35,488 bases of DNA from a virus, in the IMG/VR virus record IMGVR_UViG_3300031669_000122, positions 1-35,488 of that record. The stretch is one strand, 5' to 3'. The notes under the pieces are model-generated. The model did no database searches. It saw nothing but the letters and a program-made list of their open reading frames with translations, and was not told the DNA's origin. Below, piece by piece: positions 4,372 through 29,933 of the stretch (positions within the stretch are counted from its first letter, which is position 1; every line of letters begins with the position of its first letter). The position numbers and the translations under genes were made by a program.

Positions 4372-4919
4372 CTCAATCCGAAATATCAGCAAAGCTCACG
4401 CGCTTAAAATTCGTCGGCCTGTACTCTTACTCTCGGCTTGCAAAAGAGTCCGGCCTATCGACCGACACGATCCGCAAGGCAATGGCTGGCACGATGAGCG
4501 CCCGCACACAGACGCGCATTGGAATGCTTTTGAAGCAGTTGCCAGAACAATGCGAGAGGCCGCCAAAGAAGAATAAGCCGGGACATAAGAAGCGGTTTCT
4601 CATTCGCTACCTAAATTTGCGTTACTGGATTTCCGAGATAGAGGAAGTGTGCGGCAAAAATCCGCGTTTCAAGCTTCGGCGCAATTACGACTTGAGCACA
4701 TCGGAGAAGGCCGGATACGTTTGCACTAAGCTCGACTTCATGCTAAAGACCTATGTGATGCAAGTGTTCGGCGCGGAGTTGCAGAAACGAAAAGTTTTCA
4801 TGGGAGATTGCTATGCAGTCGAGCAATGGATTGAACGTATCGCAAAAATATTACCGAATACAAGAAAGGATTTGCTTGCTCGATTGCAAAAACGAAGGGG
4901 GATAAATGAACATAGATGA
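4368..4919 (+). CDS. HTH protein next to the terminase
   Basis: A 183-residue basic protein starting with GTG at 4368 (GTGA overlap with terL). Residues about 18-55 read YSYSRLAKESGLSTDTIRKA and then a second helix, a typical Cro/XRE-like helix-turn-helix. The C-terminal 120 residues are rich in Lys/Arg and aromatic residues and match nothing recognised. It could be a transcription regulator of the late operon. Alternatively it could be an unusually placed small terminase subunit, because small subunits also bind DNA by an HTH and no other good candidate exists in the window. Both are inference. Confidence 0.7.
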   Translation: MTQSEISAKLTRLKFVGLYSYSRLAKESGLSTDTIRKAMAGTMSARTQTRIGMLLKQLPEQCERPPKKNKPGHKKRFLIRYLNLRYWISEIEEVCGKNPRFKLRRNYDLSTSEKAGYVCTKLDFMLKTYVMQVFGAELQKRKVFMGDCYAVEQWIERIAKILPNTRKDLLARLQKRRGINEHR

Positions 4920-5106
4920 AGTAAAGGTACTTGAAAAGAAAATCTGCAAATATCTCGCGCTGCTTTCCTTCGCTGATCTGACGGAACTCAAGATCAGTGG
5001 TCAGCAGCAGATCAAGATCAAAAAAGGCGAGGTAGTTCACTTCTATGCGAAGACCCGTGAGCGGCTTGCGAAGCTGGTGACAAAGAATGAACCTATCCGG
5101 AGTTAA
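4906..5106 (+). CDS. Small hypothetical protein, 66 aa
   Basis: ATG at 4906 follows GAAGGGGGATAA and overlaps the preceding gene by 14 bases. The product starts MNIDEVKVLEKKICKYLALL. It is predicted mainly helical with a lysine-rich centre and a basic C-terminus. No family is recognised. It overlaps the next gene by 20 bases, so the run 4368-5601 is a tightly coupled set of small genes between terminase and portal. Confidence 0.65.
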   Translation: MNIDEVKVLEKKICKYLALLSFADLTELKISGQQQIKIKKGEVVHFYAKTRERLAKLVTKNEPIRS

Positions 5107-5389
5107 GAACGCAACTAGCTTCATCATCTTGCAAGGATACGTTATTTCTGTCGGTTACCAGTGCCGGATAAACTCACCGCGATCCGGGCTGTATGACATC
5201 AAGTGGAAAAACAACCGGCTACCTGACGGCGTGAAGATTGGCGCGTATGTTACATTGATGGGCCAGTTAATCACTTTGGATTTAGGTCGTGCATTTATCA
5301 TCATCAAAGCGGAAGCTCTCAAGCCAGGGAGTTTGCCGAAGATCAAACGCTTTCTACAGGGAGAAAAGCAATGTCAAAAACCCACATGA
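5087..5389 (+). CDS. Small beta-rich protein, possibly OB-fold-like, 100 aa
   Basis: ATG at 5087 lies inside the preceding gene with only a weak upstream site, so coupling is likely. The middle (about residues 15-75) alternates hydrophobic and polar residues (GYVISVGYQCRI, GAYVTLMGQLITLDLG, AFIIIKAEAL). That is the pattern of a small beta-barrel and is reminiscent of OB-fold nucleic-acid-binding proteins. This is inference from pattern only. The C-terminus is basic. It overlaps the next gene by 19 bases. Confidence 0.6.
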   Translation: MNLSGVKNATSFIILQGYVISVGYQCRINSPRSGLYDIKWKNNRLPDGVKIGAYVTLMGQLITLDLGRAFIIIKAEALKPGSLPKIKRFLQGEKQCQKPT

Positions 5390-5601
5390 CCGCAGAGCAA
5401 TTTGAGCAGGAAGTTGAACGGCTGCAAATTCGCTGTGACAAAGCCGCATTTCGCATCAGCAAGTTCCTGATGGAGAAGACTAAGGCGCTCCATGACCAGC
5501 TCGACGACGACCAGAAAGAGCGCGTTATGCGCCGGTTCCAGGCCAAAGTAAGGGAGTCACAGCGCAAGATCATCATGCCGCCAAGTCGATTTTCAAACTG
5601 A
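5371..5601 (+). CDS. Small helical protein, 76 aa
   Basis: ATG at 5371 behind GGGAGAAAAGCA. The product is strongly charged with coiled-coil character (repeated E/K/R with hydrophobic spacing, for example FEQEVERLQIRCDKAAF and KERVMRRFQAKVRESQRK). It has no recognised domain. It is the last gene before the internal promoter at 5627, so it probably ends the first rightward subunit. Confidence 0.65.
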   Translation: MSKTHMTAEQFEQEVERLQIRCDKAAFRISKFLMEKTKALHDQLDDDQKERVMRRFQAKVRESQRKIIMPPSRFSN

Positions 5602-5626
5602 TATTTTAAAATAATTAAAATAGTTC

Positions 5627-5655
5627 TTGACAAATCCTGAAACTTTAGTTATCTT
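5627..5655 (+). promoter_or_regulatory. Sigma70-type promoter for the portal/head genes
   Basis: TTGACA at 5627-5632, a 17-base spacer, and TATCTT at 5650-5655 (4 of 6 bases of the -10 consensus). An AT-rich tract at 5601-5623 precedes it and resembles an UP element. The 5' leader carries a small hairpin (GTGAC, loop, GTCAC at 5668-5684) before the SD of the next gene. Confidence 0.65.
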
Positions 5656-5713
5656 CGCTACCAATGGGTGACGTTTTTTGTCACATACAATATCTGGTAT
5701 CGGAGGTAACTGA

Positions 5714-7870: not shown

Positions 7871-7902
7871 TCGCTTGAGCGTGGCGAATCTTTCGGGTGT
7901 CC

Positions 7903-7943
7903 AGGCCACAATACGATAATCGTATAGACAACTGGCCCCGATT
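7903..7943 (+). promoter_or_regulatory. Structured leader with a 15-bp palindrome
   Basis: ATACGATAATCGTAT (7911-7925) is a perfect palindrome with 7-base arms around one base. It is enclosed by outer complementary arms GGCCA and TGGCC. It lies 34-48 bases before the ATG at 7959. It could act as a DNA operator or an RNA hairpin controlling the next genes. Confidence 0.4.
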
Positions 7944-7958
7944 AAAAGGAGAACGAGT

Positions 7959-8330
7959 ATGCCGGATGGTACAGAGTTAGATCAACAGAGTCAGCAGTCA
8001 GGTCAACAGCCTGGCGCAATGGCTCCTCCCGCCGGAACCCCTGCCGCAAATGAACATGAGAAAAAAGGGGAAACCGAGCAGGCAAAGGCAAACGTCCAGA
8101 TGGCAGTACACATCTTGGAACAGTCTTTACCGTTACTCGGGTCTGACAGCGAAGAAGGCGCGTCGGTGCTCAAAGCGCTCTCAATGCTGTCTAAGAGTTT
8201 TGCCGGGAAGAAGTCTGCTGATTTAGTTCCTGCCGAACAGATGCAGGCAATCGCCGGTATGCCCGATACGATAAAGGCGCAACTTCAAAAAGAATTGGGC
8301 GCGGGTGGTCAACCGCAGCCCGGAGCATAA
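7959..8330 (+). CDS. Head-region hypothetical protein, Gln/Ala/Pro-rich, 123 aa
   Basis: ATG at 7959 behind AAAAGGAGAACGAGT. The N-terminal 45 residues are low-complexity (Gln, Pro, Gly, Ala) and likely disordered. Residues about 45-115 form helices (MAVHILEQSLPLLG, VLKALSMLSKSFAGK). The C-terminus is again Gly/Gln/Pro-rich. The position between portal and capsid suggests a minor head or assembly component. No family is recognised. A good SD (AAGGAGG) follows for the next small gene. Confidence 0.7.
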   Translation: MPDGTELDQQSQQSGQQPGAMAPPAGTPAANEHEKKGETEQAKANVQMAVHILEQSLPLLGSDSEEGASVLKALSMLSKSFAGKKSADLVPAEQMQAIAGMPDTIKAQLQKELGAGGQPQPGA

Positions 8331-8340
8331 GGAGGAAAAT

Positions 8341-8502
8341 ATGTCGTTTATGGGACCAAAGTATAATAGCACCAAGAAGAAGTCGAGCAAGCTCGTCGGC
8401 TACCCGCCTGCGATCCCCGACATGGGGCATGGTGGCCACGCGCTGCTCGGGCATCCCGCTGAGAAGCATATCAACGGGAAGATTGTGAAACCCAACAAAT
8501 AA
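8341..8502 (+). CDS. Small basic head-region protein, 53 aa
   Basis: ATG at 8341 behind AAGGAGGAAAAT; a GTG further upstream at 8305 lies inside the previous gene and lacks a site. The product begins MSFMGPKYNSTKKKSSKLVG, then has a Gly/His-rich centre and a basic end. It shows no regular hydrophobic core and may be an extended virion peptide. No function is recognised. It is placed between two head-assembly genes with their own ribosome sites. Confidence 0.65.
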   Translation: MSFMGPKYNSTKKKSSKLVGYPPAIPDMGHGGHALLGHPAEKHINGKIVKPNK

Positions 8503-8526
8503 CCCAAAGACCCAAAGGAGATTGTC

Positions 8527-9030
8527 ATGGTAGAAGTTGATGAAAACGTAGCCGAACTCGGAAAGTTGGCCCAAAAGCTGTCACTCGGGCCAACGCGGAA
8601 AGACTTTTTGAAATTGCTCAAGAAGGCCAATCCTGAAACGCCGTTTCCCGAAGTGGACGCGGATGAAGCTATTACGGCGGCCACTGCGCCTCTGCTCTCG
8701 GAGATCGAGAAACTCAAGCAGAATCAGGCGCATGAACAGTCGATGAAGAATTTGGCCGAACGGCGCAAGCCGGTGGCCCATCTTCCCGCCGAAGACCTGA
8801 AATCCCTTGAGCAGTTTATGATCGACAAGGGGATTGCCGACTACGAGATTGCGCTTCGGGAAAAGACGCGCCTTGATGCTGTCGCCGCTCCGCGTCCGGC
8901 TGGTCGCTTCGGCAGGGCCGAGATGCCGACACCGGACAAGGACAACGCACTGTACAAAGACCCGGCTGGCTTCCGCAACCGAACGCTTCATAATCTCATC
9001 GACGATCTTCACGCGGGTAAGGCGATTTAA
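8527..9030 (+). CDS. Probable scaffolding protein, 167 aa
   Basis: ATG at 8527 with AAAGGAGATTGTC upstream. The protein is acidic and helical with a coiled-coil centre (LLSEIEKLKQNQAHEQSMKN, about residues 56-75) and lies immediately before the capsid gene. Those are the usual position and character of phage scaffolding proteins, which direct prohead assembly and leave before or during packaging. The C-terminal part (GFRNRTLHNLIDDLHAGKAI) could be the capsid-binding segment. The assignment is by context, and a minor head protein is an alternative. Confidence 0.6.
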   Translation: MVEVDENVAELGKLAQKLSLGPTRKDFLKLLKKANPETPFPEVDADEAITAATAPLLSEIEKLKQNQAHEQSMKNLAERRKPVAHLPAEDLKSLEQFMIDKGIADYEIALREKTRLDAVAAPRPAGRFGRAEMPTPDKDNALYKDPAGFRNRTLHNLIDDLHAGKAI

Positions 9031-10986: not shown

Positions 10987-10993
10987 TCTGCGA

Positions 10994-11038
10994 AACGGGC
11001 CTGAAATGGCCCGTAATTATCCGGTGGCGCGGATAATC
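10994..11038 (+). terminator. Tandem hairpins after the head gene block
   Basis: The first hairpin is ACGGGCC-TGAAAT-GGCCCGT with a perfect 7-bp stem. It is followed at once by ATTATCC-GGTGGCGC-GGATAAT, also a 7-bp stem. No U-tract follows, so this is probably a partial terminator or RNA-processing site that lowers expression of the downstream fibre gene relative to the capsid genes. Confidence 0.5.
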
Positions 11039-11065
11039 TGATGAGCAGCCAAAGAAAGGGATTCC

Positions 11066-14000
11066 ATGAAAAAAATATTAATCACATTTGCCATATTCCT
11101 TGTCCTTGCAATAACAGCAAGCGCCCTCACTCGTCGAGAAGACATAACCACTTCTCGGGGTATGGGCAACGCAATGTTTGCGTTGCCAAATGCGACAATA
11201 ACAGTTTACAATTCTGACAGAACGACACTGGCAACCCTAGCCACTGATTCTATCGGTACGCCTCTTTCAAATCCAATAACATCAGATTCTGCCGGAAGAT
11301 ATTTTTATTACGTACCAAACGGCATTTATAACGAATACATTACTAAACCGGGACATGTCCCCCAATGGAGATATGATATATCCTTTACGGGAACTCTTGC
11401 CCTTGTGGCCTCTTTCAACACTCGAACGGGCGACGTGACGCTGACGAGCGCCGATGTGGCCACAGCCTATACCGGCTCTACTTCCCTTGTCGCCGGCGGC
11501 AGCATGAGTGTTACTTCTTTGCAAACGGCGGGCACGATAACCGGCAACGGTTCCGGCCTGACCAACATCCCCTATTCCTCTACTTCCGGCACGGCGACCT
11601 ATGCGACCTCGGCAGGCACGGCCAGTACTTTCAGAACTTTTTCCACAACTACTAGCGGTATAGTCCCTGCTAGTAATGCGACATACTCAACAACTACATA
11701 TCTGCGAGCAGATGGTACATGGACAACTGATTTGCCCAGTAACATCAGAATAGTACAACCTCCATCCGGACTAACAGGAATAAGTCTATCAAGTTCCGTT
11801 GTCTCAACGGTGACAGTGGGCACGAAACCCCATGGTGCGGCCTATTCACCGAGCAATGATCGAGTGTATGTTGCAAATAATTACGACAGCACTGTCTCAG
11901 TAATCAGACCATCCGACAATACCGTGGTTGCTACCGTGGCGGTGGGCACGAACCCAGTTAGTGTCTCCTATTCGCCAAGCAATGATCGAGTGTATGTTGC
12001 AAATTATAACAGTGGCAATGTCTCAGTAATTCGTCCATCCGACAATACCGTGGTTGCTACCGTGACAGTGGGCACGAACCCCTATGGTGCGGCCTATTCA
12101 CCGAGCAATGATCGAGTGTATGTTGTAAATAATGGCAGTGGCAATGTCTCAGTAATCCGCCCATCCGACAATACTGTGGTTGCTACCGTGACAGTGGGGA
12201 CAAGCCCCAATGATGTCTCCTATTCGCCAAGTAATGATCGGGTGTATGTTGTAAATTATTTCAGTGGCAATGTCTCAGTAATTCGTCCATCCGACAACAC
12301 CGTGGTTGCTACTGTGGTAGTGGGCACAGGTCCTAATTATGTAGCCTATTCACCGAGCAATGATCGAGTGTATGTTGTAAATAATGGCAGTGGCAATGTC
12401 TCAGTAATTCGTCCATCCGACAATACTGTGGTTGCTACCGTGACGGTGGGTGCGAGCCCCAATAATGTCGCCTATTCACCAAGTAATGATCGAGTGTATG
12501 TTGTAAATACTGACGACAGCACTGTCTCAGTAATCAGACCATCCGACAATACCGTGGTTGCTACCGTGACAGTGGGTGTGAGCCCCAATTCTGTAGTCTA
12601 TTCCCCAAGTAATGATCGGTTGTATGTTGCAAATTATGGAAGCAACAATGTCTCAGTAGTATACCCATCTATAACCCCATCCCCCACGACACTTGCAGGA
12701 TTCGGTATTACAAATGCACTTTCCACGGACTACACGGGTTCTACTTCCCTTGTGACCGGCGGCACCATGAGTGTCACGTCCCTGCAAACCGCAGGCACAG
12801 TGACGGCAGGGGCGTTTGCGGGGCCTCTTACCGGTAACGTAATCGGTAACGTGAGTGGTTCAGCGGCAACGTGGACGACAGCTCGTAATCTTGCAGGTAA
12901 TTCCGTTGATGGATCGGCTAATGTAGCCTTCTCAAATAAGTTCATCGTACAGGGCACCTCCGATGCTGGATTATCGAGTGCGCAATTCCTGGGATCACTC
13001 GGAACGGGCATTGTCAAAAACACGACTACAACAGGTGTACTTTCCATTGCCACAGGACAAAATGATTTTACCGGATTGACCACAACAGATCATCCGGCAT
13101 TCGCTACAGTGGATTTGTCCTCTGCTAATGGTGGATTTAGAGTTATGCAAACTCCATCGGGGCTTACAGGATTAAATCTATCAAGCGCAGTTGTCTCAAC
13201 GGTGACGGTGAGCACGGGTCCCCGTAATGTCGCCTACTCCCCGAGCAATGACCGGATATATGTGGCGAACTATAGCAGCAATAATGTTTCAGTCATCAGG
13301 CCATCAGACAATACTGTTGTCTCAACGGTGACGGTGAGCACGGGTCCAATTGGTATTGCCTACTCCCCGAGCAATGACCGGATATATGTGGCGAACTATG
13401 GCGGCAATAATGTTTCAGTCATCAGGCCATCAGACAATACTGTTGTCTCAACGGTGACGGTGAGCACGGGTCCACAGGGTATTGCCTACTCCCCGAGCAA
13501 TGACCGGGTCTATGTGGCGAACAGTGGCAGCAATGTTTCAGTCATCAGGCCATCAGACAATACTGTTGTCTCAACGGTGACGGTGAGCACGGGTCCACAG
13601 GGTATTGCCTACTCCCCGAGCAATGACCGGATATATGTGGCGAACAATGGCGACAATAATGTTTCAGTCATCAGGCCATCAGACAATACTGTTGTCTCAA
13701 CGGTGACGGTGAGCACGGGTCCATTTGGTATTGCCTACTCCCCGAGCAATGACCGGATATATGTGGTGAACTATAGCAGCAATAATGTTTCAGTCATCAG
13801 GCCATCAGACAATACTGTTGTCTCAACGGTGACGGTGGGCACGGGTCCAATTGGTATTGCCTACTCCCCGAGCAATGACCGGATATATGTGGTGAACTAT
13901 AGCAGCAATAATGTTTCAGTCATCAGGCCATCAGACAATACTGTTGTCTCAACGGTGACGGTGGGCACGAATCCCCGTAATGTCGCCTACTCCCCGAGTA

Positions 14001-14371
14001 ATGACCGGATATATGTGGTGAACTATAGCAGCAATAATGTTTCAGTAATTTATCCATCCATAACCCCATCACCAACAACGTTAGCAGGATTTGGTATCAC
14101 AGATGCATTTTCAAACGTTTTGTCTGGAACAACAACTACGATTGGAGGAAGTCTTTTAGTAACTGCGGGAACGTGTACTACCGCGACAGCAACCGTGTCA
14201 GGAGCAACCACAGCAATGGTCGCAATAGCGAATCCTAGCGATGGAGTTCATGAAGGATTGGTTAGCGTATACACCTACGTATCAGCAGCAAATACAGTTA
14301 GTGTCGATGAATGCGCATTGGCTGCGGTAACACCGGCAGCTAGACAATATTATGTAAGGGTGATCAAATAA
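11066..14371 (+). CDS. Secreted-type tail-fibre protein with two 7-bladed YVTN beta-propellers
   Basis: 1101 residues. Residues 1-21 (MKKILITFAIFLVLAITASA) form a Sec signal peptide or anchor. Residues about 30-135 resemble fibre N-terminal and 'SFNTRTGDVTLTSADV' fibre modules. Two blocks of seven 42-residue YVTN-type repeats follow (about residues 244-533 and 709-998), each enough for one propeller. Each block ends with YPSITPSPTTLAGFGIT, the last part typical of phage fibres. Between them lies a linker that repeats an earlier segment (TGSTSL...SVTSLQTAGT). The final 100 residues form a beta-rich domain. Most likely a receptor-binding fibre or spike. The signal peptide is unusual for a virion protein. 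Confidence 0.8.
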   Translation: MKKILITFAIFLVLAITASALTRREDITTSRGMGNAMFALPNATITVYNSDRTTLATLATDSIGTPLSNPITSDSAGRYFYYVPNGIYNEYITKPGHVPQWRYDISFTGTLALVASFNTRTGDVTLTSADVATAYTGSTSLVAGGSMSVTSLQTAGTITGNGSGLTNIPYSSTSGTATYATSAGTASTFRTFSTTTSGIVPASNATYSTTTYLRADGTWTTDLPSNIRIVQPPSGLTGISLSSSVVSTVTVGTKPHGAAYSPSNDRVYVANNYDSTVSVIRPSDNTVVATVAVGTNPVSVSYSPSNDRVYVANYNSGNVSVIRPSDNTVVATVTVGTNPYGAAYSPSNDRVYVVNNGSGNVSVIRPSDNTVVATVTVGTSPNDVSYSPSNDRVYVVNYFSGNVSVIRPSDNTVVATVVVGTGPNYVAYSPSNDRVYVVNNGSGNVSVIRPSDNTVVATVTVGASPNNVAYSPSNDRVYVVNTDDSTVSVIRPSDNTVVATVTVGVSPNSVVYSPSNDRLYVANYGSNNVSVVYPSITPSPTTLAGFGITNALSTDYTGSTSLVTGGTMSVTSLQTAGTVTAGAFAGPLTGNVIGNVSGSAATWTTARNLAGNSVDGSANVAFSNKFIVQGTSDAGLSSAQFLGSLGTGIVKNTTTTGVLSIATGQNDFTGLTTTDHPAFATVDLSSANGGFRVMQTPSGLTGLNLSSAVVSTVTVSTGPRNVAYSPSNDRIYVANYSSNNVSVIRPSDNTVVSTVTVSTGPIGIAYSPSNDRIYVANYGGNNVSVIRPSDNTVVSTVTVSTGPQGIAYSPSNDRVYVANSGSNVSVIRPSDNTVVSTVTVSTGPQGIAYSPSNDRIYVANNGDNNVSVIRPSDNTVVSTVTVSTGPFGIAYSPSNDRIYVVNYSSNNVSVIRPSDNTVVSTVTVGTGPIGIAYSPSNDRIYVVNYSSNNVSVIRPSDNTVVSTVTVGTNPRNVAYSPSNDRIYVVNYSSNNVSVIYPSITPSPTTLAGFGITDAFSNVLSGTTTTIGGSLLVTAGTCTTATATVSGATTAMVAIANPSDGVHEGLVSVYTYVSAANTVSVDECALAAVTPAARQYYVRVIK
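11797..12662 (+). repeat. First propeller array: seven 126-bp units
   Basis: Seven 126-bp units, each encoding 42 residues with the anchor YSPSNDRVYV and the linker IRPSDNTVVATV. The units differ mainly around the loop after the anchor (NNYDST, NYNSGN, NNGSGN, NYFSGN, NTDDST and so on). VVATV and NDRV are typical of this array. Confidence 0.9.
13190..14058 (+). repeat. Second propeller array: seven 126-bp units
   Basis: Seven units nearly identical to one another at the DNA level and distinct from the first array (VVSTV instead of VVATV, mostly NDRI instead of NDRV). The third unit is one codon shorter in its loop (NSGSN). Homogeneity within the array indicates recent amplification or gene conversion. 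Confidence 0.9.
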
Positions 14372-27007: not shown

Positions 27008-27011
27008 TTAA

Positions 27012-27039
27012 AAAGCCGGGGTTTTCATTCCCCGGCTTT
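27012..27039. terminator. Strong bidirectional terminator between convergent operons
   Basis: AAAGCCGGGG (27012-27021), TTTTCATT, CCCCGGCTTT (27030-27039): a perfect 10-bp stem with A-rich and T-rich ends, suitable for termination on both strands. It marks the meeting point of the rightward late operon and the leftward operon. Confidence 0.9.
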
Positions 27040-27145
27040 CACTTCGCTTGAATAGTTTTCCAAAAAAAGAGTTAGGTCTGTTTTTTCCACTTGCCGATAG
27101 TCAGCCTCCATCCCCATTCATTCGTTGGGAAAAATTTCTTTCTGT

Positions 27146-27325
27146 TTAAAGTCCGTCGCGGCTCGCAGCCGGATCGGTTGAAGCTTGCCTTGACCGATTT
27201 CTTTTTCTGCTTTGTTTCTGAAATAACCTAAAGTCACCTCCTCCCTTTTTACCGCAATACTTTGTAAATCCGAAAATGCACTCTACGCAAGATTCGCGTG
27301 TGCAATATTCATTTTTTTTATACAT
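27146..27325 (-). CDS. Small cysteine-rich protein, uncertain frame, 59 aa
   Basis: ATG at 27325 behind GGGAAGAGG. The product opens MYKKNEYCTRESCVECIFGF, then TKYCGKKGGGDF, giving a C-x4-C-x2-C-x7-C cluster that could bind zinc or an iron-sulfur centre. From about residue 30 the other two frames are equally protein-like. One ends WGWRLTIGKWKK at 27072. Another runs from a GTG near 27245 and, after a TGA, continues from ATG at 27117 to 27025. A frameshift or several overlapping micro-genes are therefore possible. The N-terminal part is most secure. It follows the 45-bp palindromic repeat at 27360-27404. Confidence 0.45.
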   Translation of the reverse strand: MYKKNEYCTRESCVECIFGFTKYCGKKGGGDFRLFQKQSRKRNRSRQASTDPAASRDGL

Positions 27326-27359
27326 AAGCAAACCTCTTCCCTGCGATTATTCCCACCAT

Positions 27360-27404
27360 CGTATCGACGGGTCGCAAGACCCGCGCCCGTCATCCGGGCG
27401 TTAT
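27360..27404 (-). repeat. attC-like palindromic element, copy 1
   Basis: This 45-bp stretch is identical to 28039-28083. On the minus strand it begins ATAACGCC and ends in ATACG. Inside it has two side-by-side 6-bp hairpins (CGCCCG/CGGGCG and CGGGTC/GACCCG). The next bases (ATGG instead of TTGG) differ from copy 2 exactly at the point where an integron R-prime site would be cut. It lies just after the stop of the methyltransferase-like gene. Confidence 0.75.
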
Positions 27405-27407
27405 GTA

Positions 27408-28016
27408 CTACTTGTTTGCCTCAAAGAATGCCCGTGCAAATCCCTGAGAACACAAAGACCGAAAAGACATATCATCGTCAACCGTGAAGCAGTCGAACTC
27501 ACGTATATGGTTCTTCGCGCTTTTGTGCAAAAAGGCTATGCTCGGCTTCGGTCTTCCAGGCCTCACATACAACGCAGTGTTCTTCGGAACATCTTGCCAT
27601 CTGTAATACTTTGGAACGGGTTTATTGAACTTTCCCCACAATGCCGTCCGCTTCGTCCAAGGGCTTCCGAACATCCACGGCTCATATGTCATCACAGGCT
27701 TTCCCAAAAAATCCTTTAGCCTGCCGGTCGCCGGGTTCTCAATCGTCCAGAACGTCGGGGTACACTCTTTGATTATTCGCAGACATTCGTTTACTAAAAA
27801 CATTCCTTTTTCGTAATCCCCGCTCTTGTGAAATCCTGATGCCACGCTAAACTCAGTACATACCGGATTGGCTATAATGCCATATACGTTTTCAGGTGGA
27901 TGGTAGTTTTCCACTCCTATGCTTCTACCAATCAACCTCACGTCGTACCCTGCGTCTTGATACGGCTTAGAATCCGATCCTATGTCTGCACACAAATGAA
28001 GAATAATTTTACTCAA
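27408..28016 (-). CDS. Cytosine methyltransferase-like protein, 202 aa
   Basis: TTG start at 28016 behind GGAGGGTCGG. The N-terminus (MSKIILHLCADIGSDSKPYQ) resembles an AdoMet-binding beta-strand and loop. IIANPVCTEFSVASG (about residues 47-61) is in the place of the catalytic Cys motif of C5-cytosine methyltransferases. FWTIENPATG (about 89-98) corresponds to the ENV motif. At 202 residues it is much shorter than the family (over 300), and the target-recognition part is reduced. Such short phage relatives are annotated as methylases or DNA-modification proteins of unproven activity. It is the body of a possible gene cassette, flanked on both sides by palindromic elements. Confidence 0.65.
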   Translation of the reverse strand: MSKIILHLCADIGSDSKPYQDAGYDVRLIGRSIGVENYHPPENVYGIIANPVCTEFSVASGFHKSGDYEKGMFLVNECLRIIKECTPTFWTIENPATGRLKDFLGKPVMTYEPWMFGSPWTKRTALWGKFNKPVPKYYRWQDVPKNTALYVRPGRPKPSIAFLHKSAKNHIREFDCFTVDDDMSFRSLCSQGFARAFFEANK

Positions 28017-28038
28017 CCGACCCTCCGTACATAACCAA

Positions 28039-28083
28039 CGTATCGACGGGTCGCAAGACCCGCGCCCGTCATCCGGGCGTTAT
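28039..28083 (-). repeat. attC-like palindromic element, copy 2
   Basis: Identical over 45 bases to copy 1. The TAA stop of the gene at 28080-28313 lies inside its left end (GATAAC on the minus strand), and the right end continues into GTTGGTT, close to the GTTRRRY consensus. Outer bases can pair (AAC with GTT). Confidence 0.75.
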
Positions 28084-28313
28084 CCTTGTTCCTGTGCTTC
28101 TTGCCATTCTTCTTCACTTGGCAATTCAGGTTTCGGCTGTTGTCTCCGAAGCTCAACATTGGCAGCAGCATCATGGCTCATTCCGTCGTAATAACTGTCA
28201 CTTACCCGTTCACAGTCTATTCGGTCTGGATTGCCACCGCTTCTCCATACGTCATAAAATACGTCATTTTCGTACTGCTGTCGTTCTTCCCGTTGTTCTT
28301 CTCTGGTTCGCAT
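28080..28313 (-). CDS. Small acidic conserved phage protein, 77 aa
   Basis: ATG at 28313 preceded by TTAGGAGAAATT, so the end of the palindromic element at 28322-28376 supplies the ribosome site. The product contains VWRSGGNPDRIDCERVSDSY and YDGMSHDAAANVELRRQQ, a pattern known from small hypothetical proteins of phages. It is rich in Glu, Arg and Gln, soluble, and probably helical. Its stop codon lies within the 45-bp repeat. Function unknown. Confidence 0.75.
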   Translation of the reverse strand: MRTREEQREERQQYENDVFYDVWRSGGNPDRIDCERVSDSYYDGMSHDAAANVELRRQQPKPELPSEEEWQEAQEQG

Positions 28314-28321
28314 AATTTCTC

Positions 28322-28376
28322 CTAACGTGCGGGTCGAGTCCCGCGCTGAGATACGCGGGGCTCACCCGCGTGTTAG
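28322..28376. repeat. attC-like long hairpin element
   Basis: Nested palindrome: CTAAC (28322-28326) pairs with GTTAG (28372-28376). Unpaired GT/GT spacers follow, then GCGGGT/ACCCGC, a single unpaired C at 28335, GAG/CTC, one T-G pair, CCCGCG/CGCGGG and an 8-base loop. The arrangement of paired ends, 2-base spacers and one bulged base is the layout of an integron attC site. The bulged C favours plus-strand orientation, whereas gene direction favours minus. Confidence 0.65.
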
Positions 28377-28436
28377 CTGAAAATCTTTCTTACGTTAAGT
28401 TCATGCTAACGAAACGAAATATTAACCTCCTTAGCG

Positions 28437-29933
28437 TTAACGCATAGACAGTGATGCCTCGCGTCGCTTTGCATTTTTTATGCGTAAATGAGTTATTAAA
28501 TTCAATGTGCTCTCAGTCGGATTAACGGCGCTCACATTGCTGCGTGGGCCTGTTCCAAAAATTTCCCTGCATTTGTACCACGCCCATCCTTCTTTGTAGC
28601 CTCGTTGTTGTGCGTACCCTTTCAACTCTGCATATATTTTTTCTCGTTCTTCACGTGGGATATTTTTAATTTTACCTTTTCCCTTTTTGATCTTTACCAA
28701 TTCGCCGTCTTTCGTTTCTATCGTATTTTTCTTTTTCGGAAACACATATCCGCATTTGGGGCATGTCGTCGGTTTTGCCAATACGCAAAAACATGTCGGG
28801 CATACAAGGGGCAAGTTTTCTTCGCGTTTCTTTTCCTTTTTCGCAGCTTCTTTTTTGTCTCTTGGTTTCCCGTCATCTAGGAACAACGGCAAATCATCGG
28901 TGGGGAATCCTAGCCGTTTACACGTCCCAGAATGATCCAGCAGAATAGACTTTTCTTTCCCCTCAAATGGCCTTAAAATTCTTCCCGCCATCTGAATATA
29001 CCGGATCAGGCTGCGCGTTGGCCTAGCAAGAATCATAACTTCACACGCTGGAAAATCCCATCCTTCCGAAAGTATCCCGACATTGGAAATTATTTTTGTT
29101 TCTCCGCTGAAAACTCGATCAAGAATTCTTCTCCTATCGTCATCGCTGGTATAGCAGTCTATGTGCTCCGCTTTCACTCCGGCCAGTATGAATTGCTCAA
29201 CGATGTGCTGTGAGTGTGCAATGTTGGTTGCAAAGCATACCGTCGGTTTATTGTTTGCCAACTTAAACCAATGGGTGACAATATCTCCGATCAGCTCGGC
29301 TTTATCAACTGCGATTCCAAGTTGCTCCTCCTGATAATCACCGGCAACTATTTTGACATTAGACAAATCCGGTTCTCCGGGGGCGTATATATCACAGTCA
29401 ACAAGATATTTTTGATCTATTAATTCACGAATGGTTGTTGCCGCAATAATTCCCTCCCACATCGTACCCCAAAAAAATGTCTTTCCCATGCCTTTGGAAA
29501 AAGGAGTTGCAGTTAATCCGATCATGGGGACCGTTTTGTAATGTTCCATGAATCGCTGATATGCTTTCGATCCAGGAGTCCCGTGTGCTTCATCGATCAA
29601 AATTAAATCAGCTTCTGGATAACCGCGCTTGTCTATCGTTTGAATAGAACAAATCTGTACCGGTTCCCACGTCATGCACGTATTCGAGCCCTGAATGATT
29701 CCATGGGGGATGTTATCCTGGGAAATTCTTTTTGATGTTTGCTTTACAAGTTCTATCCGATTGCAAACGAAGATCACCTTTTTTTGCTTTTCGATTGCCC
29801 GTTGGATCAGGTCCATGCCGATACACGTTTTCCCACTGCCCGTAGGAGCATATAAAACCACTCTAGTTTTTTTAGATGCTAAAAAACTTCTCAGCGTAGA
29901 TATTGCTTTTTCTTGATATGGTCTTAATTGCAC
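28437..29933 (-). CDS. SF2 DNA helicase with zinc ribbon
   Basis: 498 residues, GTG start at 29933 overlapping the primase end. The order of motifs is that of superfamily 2 (DEAD/DEAH, UvrB/RecG-type) helicases: Q-like motif RPYQ at 4-7, Walker A APTGSGKT at 29-36, DEAH at 114-117, TATPF near 141-145, and GRILR with an upstream QMA near 312-319 (motif VI). A C-terminal zinc ribbon CPTCFCV...CPKCG lies near 375-393, followed by a basic region. Such phage helicases unwind DNA during replication with a primase. The stop lies next to a TAACGC sequence, as in the genes downstream. Confidence 0.92.
   Translation of the reverse strand: MQLRPYQEKAISTLRSFLASKKTRVVLYAPTGSGKTCIGMDLIQRAIEKQKKVIFVCNRIELVKQTSKRISQDNIPHGIIQGSNTCMTWEPVQICSIQTIDKRGYPEADLILIDEAHGTPGSKAYQRFMEHYKTVPMIGLTATPFSKGMGKTFFWGTMWEGIIAATTIRELIDQKYLVDCDIYAPGEPDLSNVKIVAGDYQEEQLGIAVDKAELIGDIVTHWFKLANNKPTVCFATNIAHSQHIVEQFILAGVKAEHIDCYTSDDDRRRILDRVFSGETKIISNVGILSEGWDFPACEVMILARPTRSLIRYIQMAGRILRPFEGKEKSILLDHSGTCKRLGFPTDDLPLFLDDGKPRDKKEAAKKEKKREENLPLVCPTCFCVLAKPTTCPKCGYVFPKKKNTIETKDGELVKIKKGKGKIKNIPREEREKIYAELKGYAQQRGYKEGWAWYKCREIFGTGPRSNVSAVNPTESTLNLITHLRIKNAKRREASLSMR

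Follow-up and report, generated by a model that had tools for sequence, protein, structure and literature searches.

Three palindromic elements lie between genes of a leftward phage operon in the window (the whole stretch of DNA analysed, 35,488 nucleotides, from IMG/VR record IMGVR_UViG_3300031669_000122). An earlier note, made from the sequence alone, had likened them to integron attC sites enclosing compact phage genes. The question is whether they are attC sites, and if so what kind of integron structure this phage would be carrying.

Gene content of the window

The PHROG matches in the window are weak and consistent, and identify it as a tailed-phage contig. On the right-going strand they comprise terminase large subunit, portal or head-tail adaptor, and major head protein, and on the left-going strand helicase, a DnaG-type zinc ribbon, Gp157 and ERF. 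The elements are found where the left-going operon ends, past the helicase. A GC-rich inverted repeat (AAAAAGCCGGGGTTTTCATTCCCCGGCTTT), found by eye at 27010-27040 just past the last right-going ORF, is likely to be a terminator that separates the late genes from the array. Elsewhere in the window, a Type II hammerhead ribozyme (10988-11054, plus strand; Rfam RF02276, 52.4 bits, E 3.7e-8) sits before a gene for an 1101-aa protein at 11066-14371.

The DNA helicase gene (28437-29933, minus strand; phrog_16, E 2.6e-99) is upstream of the array, and is also found in phages that have no attC matches at that place. It is followed on the same strand by a 77-aa ORF (28080-28313), which has no family match in a PHROG profile search, and by a DNA methyltransferase-like gene (27408-28016, 202 aa; phrog_757, E 1.5e-26). 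After the last element there is a short leftward ORF (27146-27331, minus strand), weakly indicated by the ORF list and its translation, which is a possible remnant or further cassette gene.

As the earlier note had stated, there is no integrase: neither TIGR02249 nor PF00589 matches anything in the record, which may be a fragment. With no intI, the record does not hold a complete integron. Three elements within 1.03 kb and no intI nearby correspond to a CALIN, which is defined by at least two close attCs with no intI nearby.

Position, fold and layout of the elements

The elements are at 27360-27404, 28039-28083 and 28322-28376, each between leftward ORFs, exactly where they had been placed. 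Copies 1 and 2 are indeed identical across 45 bp, and the 22-bp core of this repeat gave no chance matches in 100 shuffled windows. Element 3 has a sequence unlike the 45-bp repeat, with a long stem containing a single bulged C and a folding energy of -20.9 to -22.8 kcal/mol (z about -5.8). The most stable fold of copies 1 and 2 is two tandem hairpins, a reservation raised earlier that our folding confirms.

The canonical attC spacing, AAC-8 nt-bulge-3 nt ... 3 nt-8 nt-GTT, was tested in a layout scan. Elements 2 and 3 (attC-2 and attC-3) match this spacing exactly, where about 0.3 comparable matches are expected per randomised window; in element 3 the L pairs number 6 of 6, and the full attC layout claimed for it is borne out. 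attC-1 has the same spacing as copy 2, without the AAC of R''. attC-1 is degenerate at R'', lacking the TAAC that should pair with GTTA, and so may be inactive. The point where copies 1 and 2 diverge (G-TTGGTT and G-ATGGTG) had been taken as the position of the attC cut. This is not the case: the divergence is on the R'' side, CCACC standing in place of TAACC in copy 1, and the predicted G/TT cuts (the slash marks the cut) are at the opposite end of the element, at 27400/27401, 28079/28080 and 28372/28373 respectively.

Intergenic stem-loops are found in T4-type phages, where PeSL elements are tied to modular gene shuffling via homology; these are not known to have attC spacing or an integrase. 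The window elements could similarly be terminators or mRNA stabilisers, or patches of homology for homologous recombination. They are GC-rich hairpins between co-directional genes, in a region with 3 terminator-like matches where 2.1 are expected. However, the sole such match within the elements, at 28062-28080, faces the opposite way from the genes, and the exact attC spacing would be unexpected, as would the model scores, the companion integrases and the G/TT junctions described below. We therefore consider this explanation very improbable. Intrinsic terminators were rejected, there being no match on the gene strand (stem plus T run) at the elements. Rfam and tRNA searches also gave no match there.

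Covariance models

A scan for hairpins in which TAAC/GTTA pairing was compulsory did not detect the 45-bp type, and covariance models were used instead. The first, R2, was trained on 34 attCs adjoining intI in bacterial genomes (bacteria only, no window sequence), which form a gap-free alignment with strong covariation in the R and L stems. The second, R3, was trained on 36 phage attCs, leaving out the window and the entire 45-bp family. R2 detects the arrays in phage integrase loci, and recovers sites in phages H101/PH101 and TJE1; it has no match in phage P12002L.

The covariance check proposed in the earlier note gave scores above background, with R2 for attC-2 only and with R3 for all three elements. 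attC-2 (28029-28085) is the top R2 match in the window (20.2 bits, E 0.0018), while attC-1 (27350-27406, 10.2 bits) and attC-3 (28320-28378, 8.0 bits) are at background. With R3 the three elements take ranks 1 to 3, all with the top strand on the plus strand: attC-2 scores 33.0 bits (E 4e-6), attC-3 scores 19.9 bits (16.3 bits on the minus strand), and attC-1 scores 19.4 bits (E 0.012). The next unrelated match, at 16.7 bits, is about 3 bits below attC-1 and attC-3. Given their background scores with R2, elements 1 and 3 rest mainly on R3, layout and position.

The predicted cassettes

The predicted cuts delimit two putative cassettes, whose genes are on the minus strand. Cassette 1 (27401-28079, 679 bp) would consist of the methyltransferase gene and the body of attC-2, and reads on the plus strand as G/TTATGTAC...methyltransferase (antisense)...attC-2. 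Cassette 2 (28080-28372, 293 bp) would consist of the 77-aa ORF and the body of attC-3, and reads as G/TTATCC...77-aa ORF (antisense)...attC-3. attC-1 belongs with the DNA to the left of 27400.

The ORFs are on the minus strand and the attC top strand is the plus strand, which is not the arrangement of a classical cassette. The suspicion that the bulged base predicts an orientation opposite to that of the genes was thus correct. With the ORFs reversed in this way relative to the attC top strand, a TAA stop codon can come from the R' box (GTTA), and part of a ribosome site from the complement of the R'' box (GTTRRRY). For the 77-aa ORF, the stop is the TTA of the R' box of attC-2, and the ribosome site (TAGGAG) shares bases with the R'' box of attC-3; the ORF is preceded by GTTAGGAG, as had been noted for its ribosome site. 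Gene stops had been described as lying in the TAAC end of the elements, and this holds for the 77-aa gene at element 2 and not for the methyltransferase gene, whose stop is 7 bases short of the TAAC end of element 1. A homologue of the methyltransferase in L128 is 91% identical (84% for the DNA), with similarity stopping near the gene ends, and there are attC matches upstream of the L128 gene. For the window, this is indirect evidence of cassette behaviour.

The same element in other viral contigs

In IMG/VR, the core of the repeat was found in six places on five other viral contigs, namely G001, G002, G003 (two copies), G004 and G005 (one change). An all-against-all BLAST shows that the window has 48-57 bp in common with these contigs, with unrelated flanks and each copy at a different site. 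In G005 (also L011) there is another hairpin too, which differs from the first but shares its end motifs. The search across genomes suggested in the earlier note therefore bore fruit for the 45-bp repeat in viral contigs; an exact search in bacterial genomes found no contig with this element, an exact search for element 3 in viral contigs found none, and nor did BLAST of the element region against plasmids. G003, a 76-kb phage record (IMGVR_UViG_3300033407_000004), has one attC array on each strand (about 47.4-49.5 kb and 66.4-69.7 kb). The two arrays total at least 10 sites, and the record has no integron integrase. Both of its arrays are inverted, in the sense discussed below.

A repeated palindrome that is identical in distant genomes might also be a different sort of mobile hairpin, of the REP/RAYT, IS200/IS605 or MITE-like type, inserted between genes. 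In other phages, however, the gene and hairpin move together with G/TT junctions, rather than the hairpin alone, and integron integrases accompany the arrays. The block junctions largely refute this idea, to which we attach almost no weight.

Integron integrases in phages

In G001 and G004 intI adjoins the arrays, and the proteins pass the curated TIGR02249 cut-off of 265 bits (436 and 271 bits respectively). The G001 integrase aligns across nearly its whole length with IntI4, which has a known structure, and R158, K184, H290, R293, H316 and Y325 (numbering of the first sequence) are invariant among 15 aligned integrases. Integrases of the TIGR02249 type are found on at least 17 viral contigs, and most of them fall into phage-only clusters. 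Relatives of the G001 integrase are present on 25 viral contigs, and an alignment query finds many more, some of which may be bacterial. A tree was made from 17 phage proteins and 47 bacterial ones, and has modest deep support. The phage label changes 4 times on it, compared to 15.2 in shuffles, implying that most of the phage integrases form clusters separate from those of bacteria. A PHROG-2 terminase was found in 10 of the 21 source records tested, and the viral identity of the remainder is taken from IMG/VR.

Some further observations were made on these records. The terminase matches in G002, G004 and G021 cross three in-frame TGA codons, possibly reflecting recoding or a match that runs past the gene end. 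L024 has tandem intI copies (4581-5503 and 7875-8797) that are 92% identical, the first apparently truncated. In L225 (Virus Rctr41k, KX853513), the gene annotated as xerD (4680-5678) encodes a protein 44% identical to the G001 integrase (E 3e-81); R2 found no attC in this record.

Cassette exchange in other phages

L031 and L034 are near-identical phages from different metagenomes. To one side of the array a stretch of 349 bp is 100% identical between them, and to the other side the identity is 91-99.4%, yet the arrays themselves are unrelated. The identity begins at CG/TTATCC, which is the exact R' cut. In L018 a 305-bp cassette is duplicated: its copies are identical and separated by other DNA, and each runs on the top strand from G/TTGGGCGG to CCACG/TTA, with exact G/TT cuts. 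These junctions are the ones that integron recombination would leave, and they fix the top strand of attC independently of the models. L031 (8001-8150) and L034 (3912-4037) also have a match to the final 45-50 residues of intI only, apparently an integrase remnant beside the arrays that differ between the two phages.

The earlier note had proposed testing whether related phages differ by whole blocks between elements. L031 and L034 do differ in this way, with blocks ending at the attC cut; the window's own relatives do not provide an example, since no close relative of the window phage was found that differs by a cassette. The relatives of its helicase are 51-56% identical, which is too distant for a clean empty site, and no attC matches were found at the helicase locus of relatives with R2 (eleven relatives) or in an R3 search.

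One could argue from this that the elements are former attCs, now dead, the array having come by integron recombination and become fixed, so that it moves only with its flanks. The lack of an integrase in the record, the damaged R'' of attC-1, and the absence of any cassette difference between close relatives of the window phage are all consistent with this. On the other hand, attC-2 matches the sites of intI-bearing phages base for base, and so has not decayed. We regard dead attCs as unlikely.

Gene orientation relative to attC

The attC top strand was called by the models from sequence and structure, independently of the genes, except for a few sites of the interval count, for which a hairpin scan and the GCGTTA hallmark were used. 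Between adjacent attCs, the longest ORF is antisense in 24 of 28 intervals in phage arrays, against 1 of 31 in bacterial arrays (Fisher p 2e-11, for intervals that are partly non-independent, several coming from each array). Among sites with a single clear call, the ORF stop is at R'' for 35 of the 36 from bacteria and at R' for 20 of the 21 from phages, and the usual phage stop is the TAA inside GTTA. A wider and less clean set of viral contigs is mixed, with 13 inverted and 7 classical, and phage H101, which is independently annotated, is inverted while TJE1 is classical. Inversion is therefore common in phages, though not universal. In both phages and bacteria most attCs are located 5' of intI and have R'' facing it, so that the geometry of the platform is classical and the ORFs alone are flipped.

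Interpretation and mechanism

The original proposal that these are attC sites came through the refuting tests set out with it: it is supported by the model scores, by the sharing of the element among unrelated phages (two of which have an integron integrase), and by the G/TT blocks in other phages. Against it are the lack of an integrase, the background R2 scores of attC-1 and attC-3, the tandem hairpins of attC-2, and the genes being antisense to attC. We conclude that the elements are very probably the attC sites of a CALIN at the distal end of a leftward phage operon. If so, the genes between them are swappable cassettes.

In single-stranded form an attC pairs R'' with R' and L'' with L', giving a hairpin that has an extrahelical base; an integron integrase cuts at G/TT and moves the cassette, which here would be either the methyltransferase gene with attC-2 or the 77-aa ORF with attC-3. 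The window's own attCs may recombine in this manner. Since the window has no integrase, one must come from outside, presumably from the host or from another phage, the same attC being present in two phages that encode an integrase. Inverted cassettes would slot into the phage operon, which may be the benefit of this orientation.

More generally, we lean towards the view that phages own a long-standing class of integron, with phage-only integrase lineages, genes inverted relative to attC, and a pool of cassettes and attCs that is shared among unrelated phages via integrases acting in trans. With the R' box serving as stop codon, the cassettes would be read as parts of a phage operon that leads into intI. 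This would be a dedicated phage gene-capture machine, separate from homologous recombination, and would help to explain how methyltransferase and other small accessory genes are swapped between unrelated phages. The reversed polarity challenges the assumption that the orientation of cassette ORFs is fixed by attC strand choice and the attI promoter. It predicts that the recombinogenic bottom strand of attC is the non-template strand in transcription.

Comparison with known systems

Gene cassettes in a phage had been thought highly unusual, but there is a precedent: Qi et al. (2023; PMC9892861) described integrons in temperate phages and CALINs in virulent phages, including methyltransferase cassettes. 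Recombination of attC with attI1 was shown for 5 of 6 phage sites, H101/PH101 and TJE1 being phages with attCs proven to recombine, and phage-encoded integron integrases were reported only in temperate phages (PMC9892861). Phage CALINs are thus already known, and the window adds a member. The part that we found unreported is the orientation: Qi et al. do not comment on inversion relative to attC (PMC9892861), and neither systematic inversion nor integrase lineages restricted to phages were described in the literature searched, which was chiefly open-access journal papers.

The window resembles the CALIN of Pseudoalteromonas phage PH101/H101, which is also an integrase-less attC array with methyltransferase cassettes, has sites found by the same model, and has its genes antisense. 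It differs from the CALINs of virulent phages (PMC9892861) in that attC-2 is common to phages that encode their own integron integrase. The CALIN of Tetrasphaera phage TJE1 is likewise a phage attC array found by the same models, but unlike the window it is classical, with annotated genes and attC on one strand. Finally, phage arrays are like the sedentary chromosomal integrons of bacteria such as Vibrio and Pseudoalteromonas in their attC layout, in having attCs 5' of intI with R'' towards intI, and in their G/TT junctions. They differ in that the bacterial ORFs are on the top strand and stop at R'', whereas the phage ORFs are mostly on the bottom strand and stop at R'.
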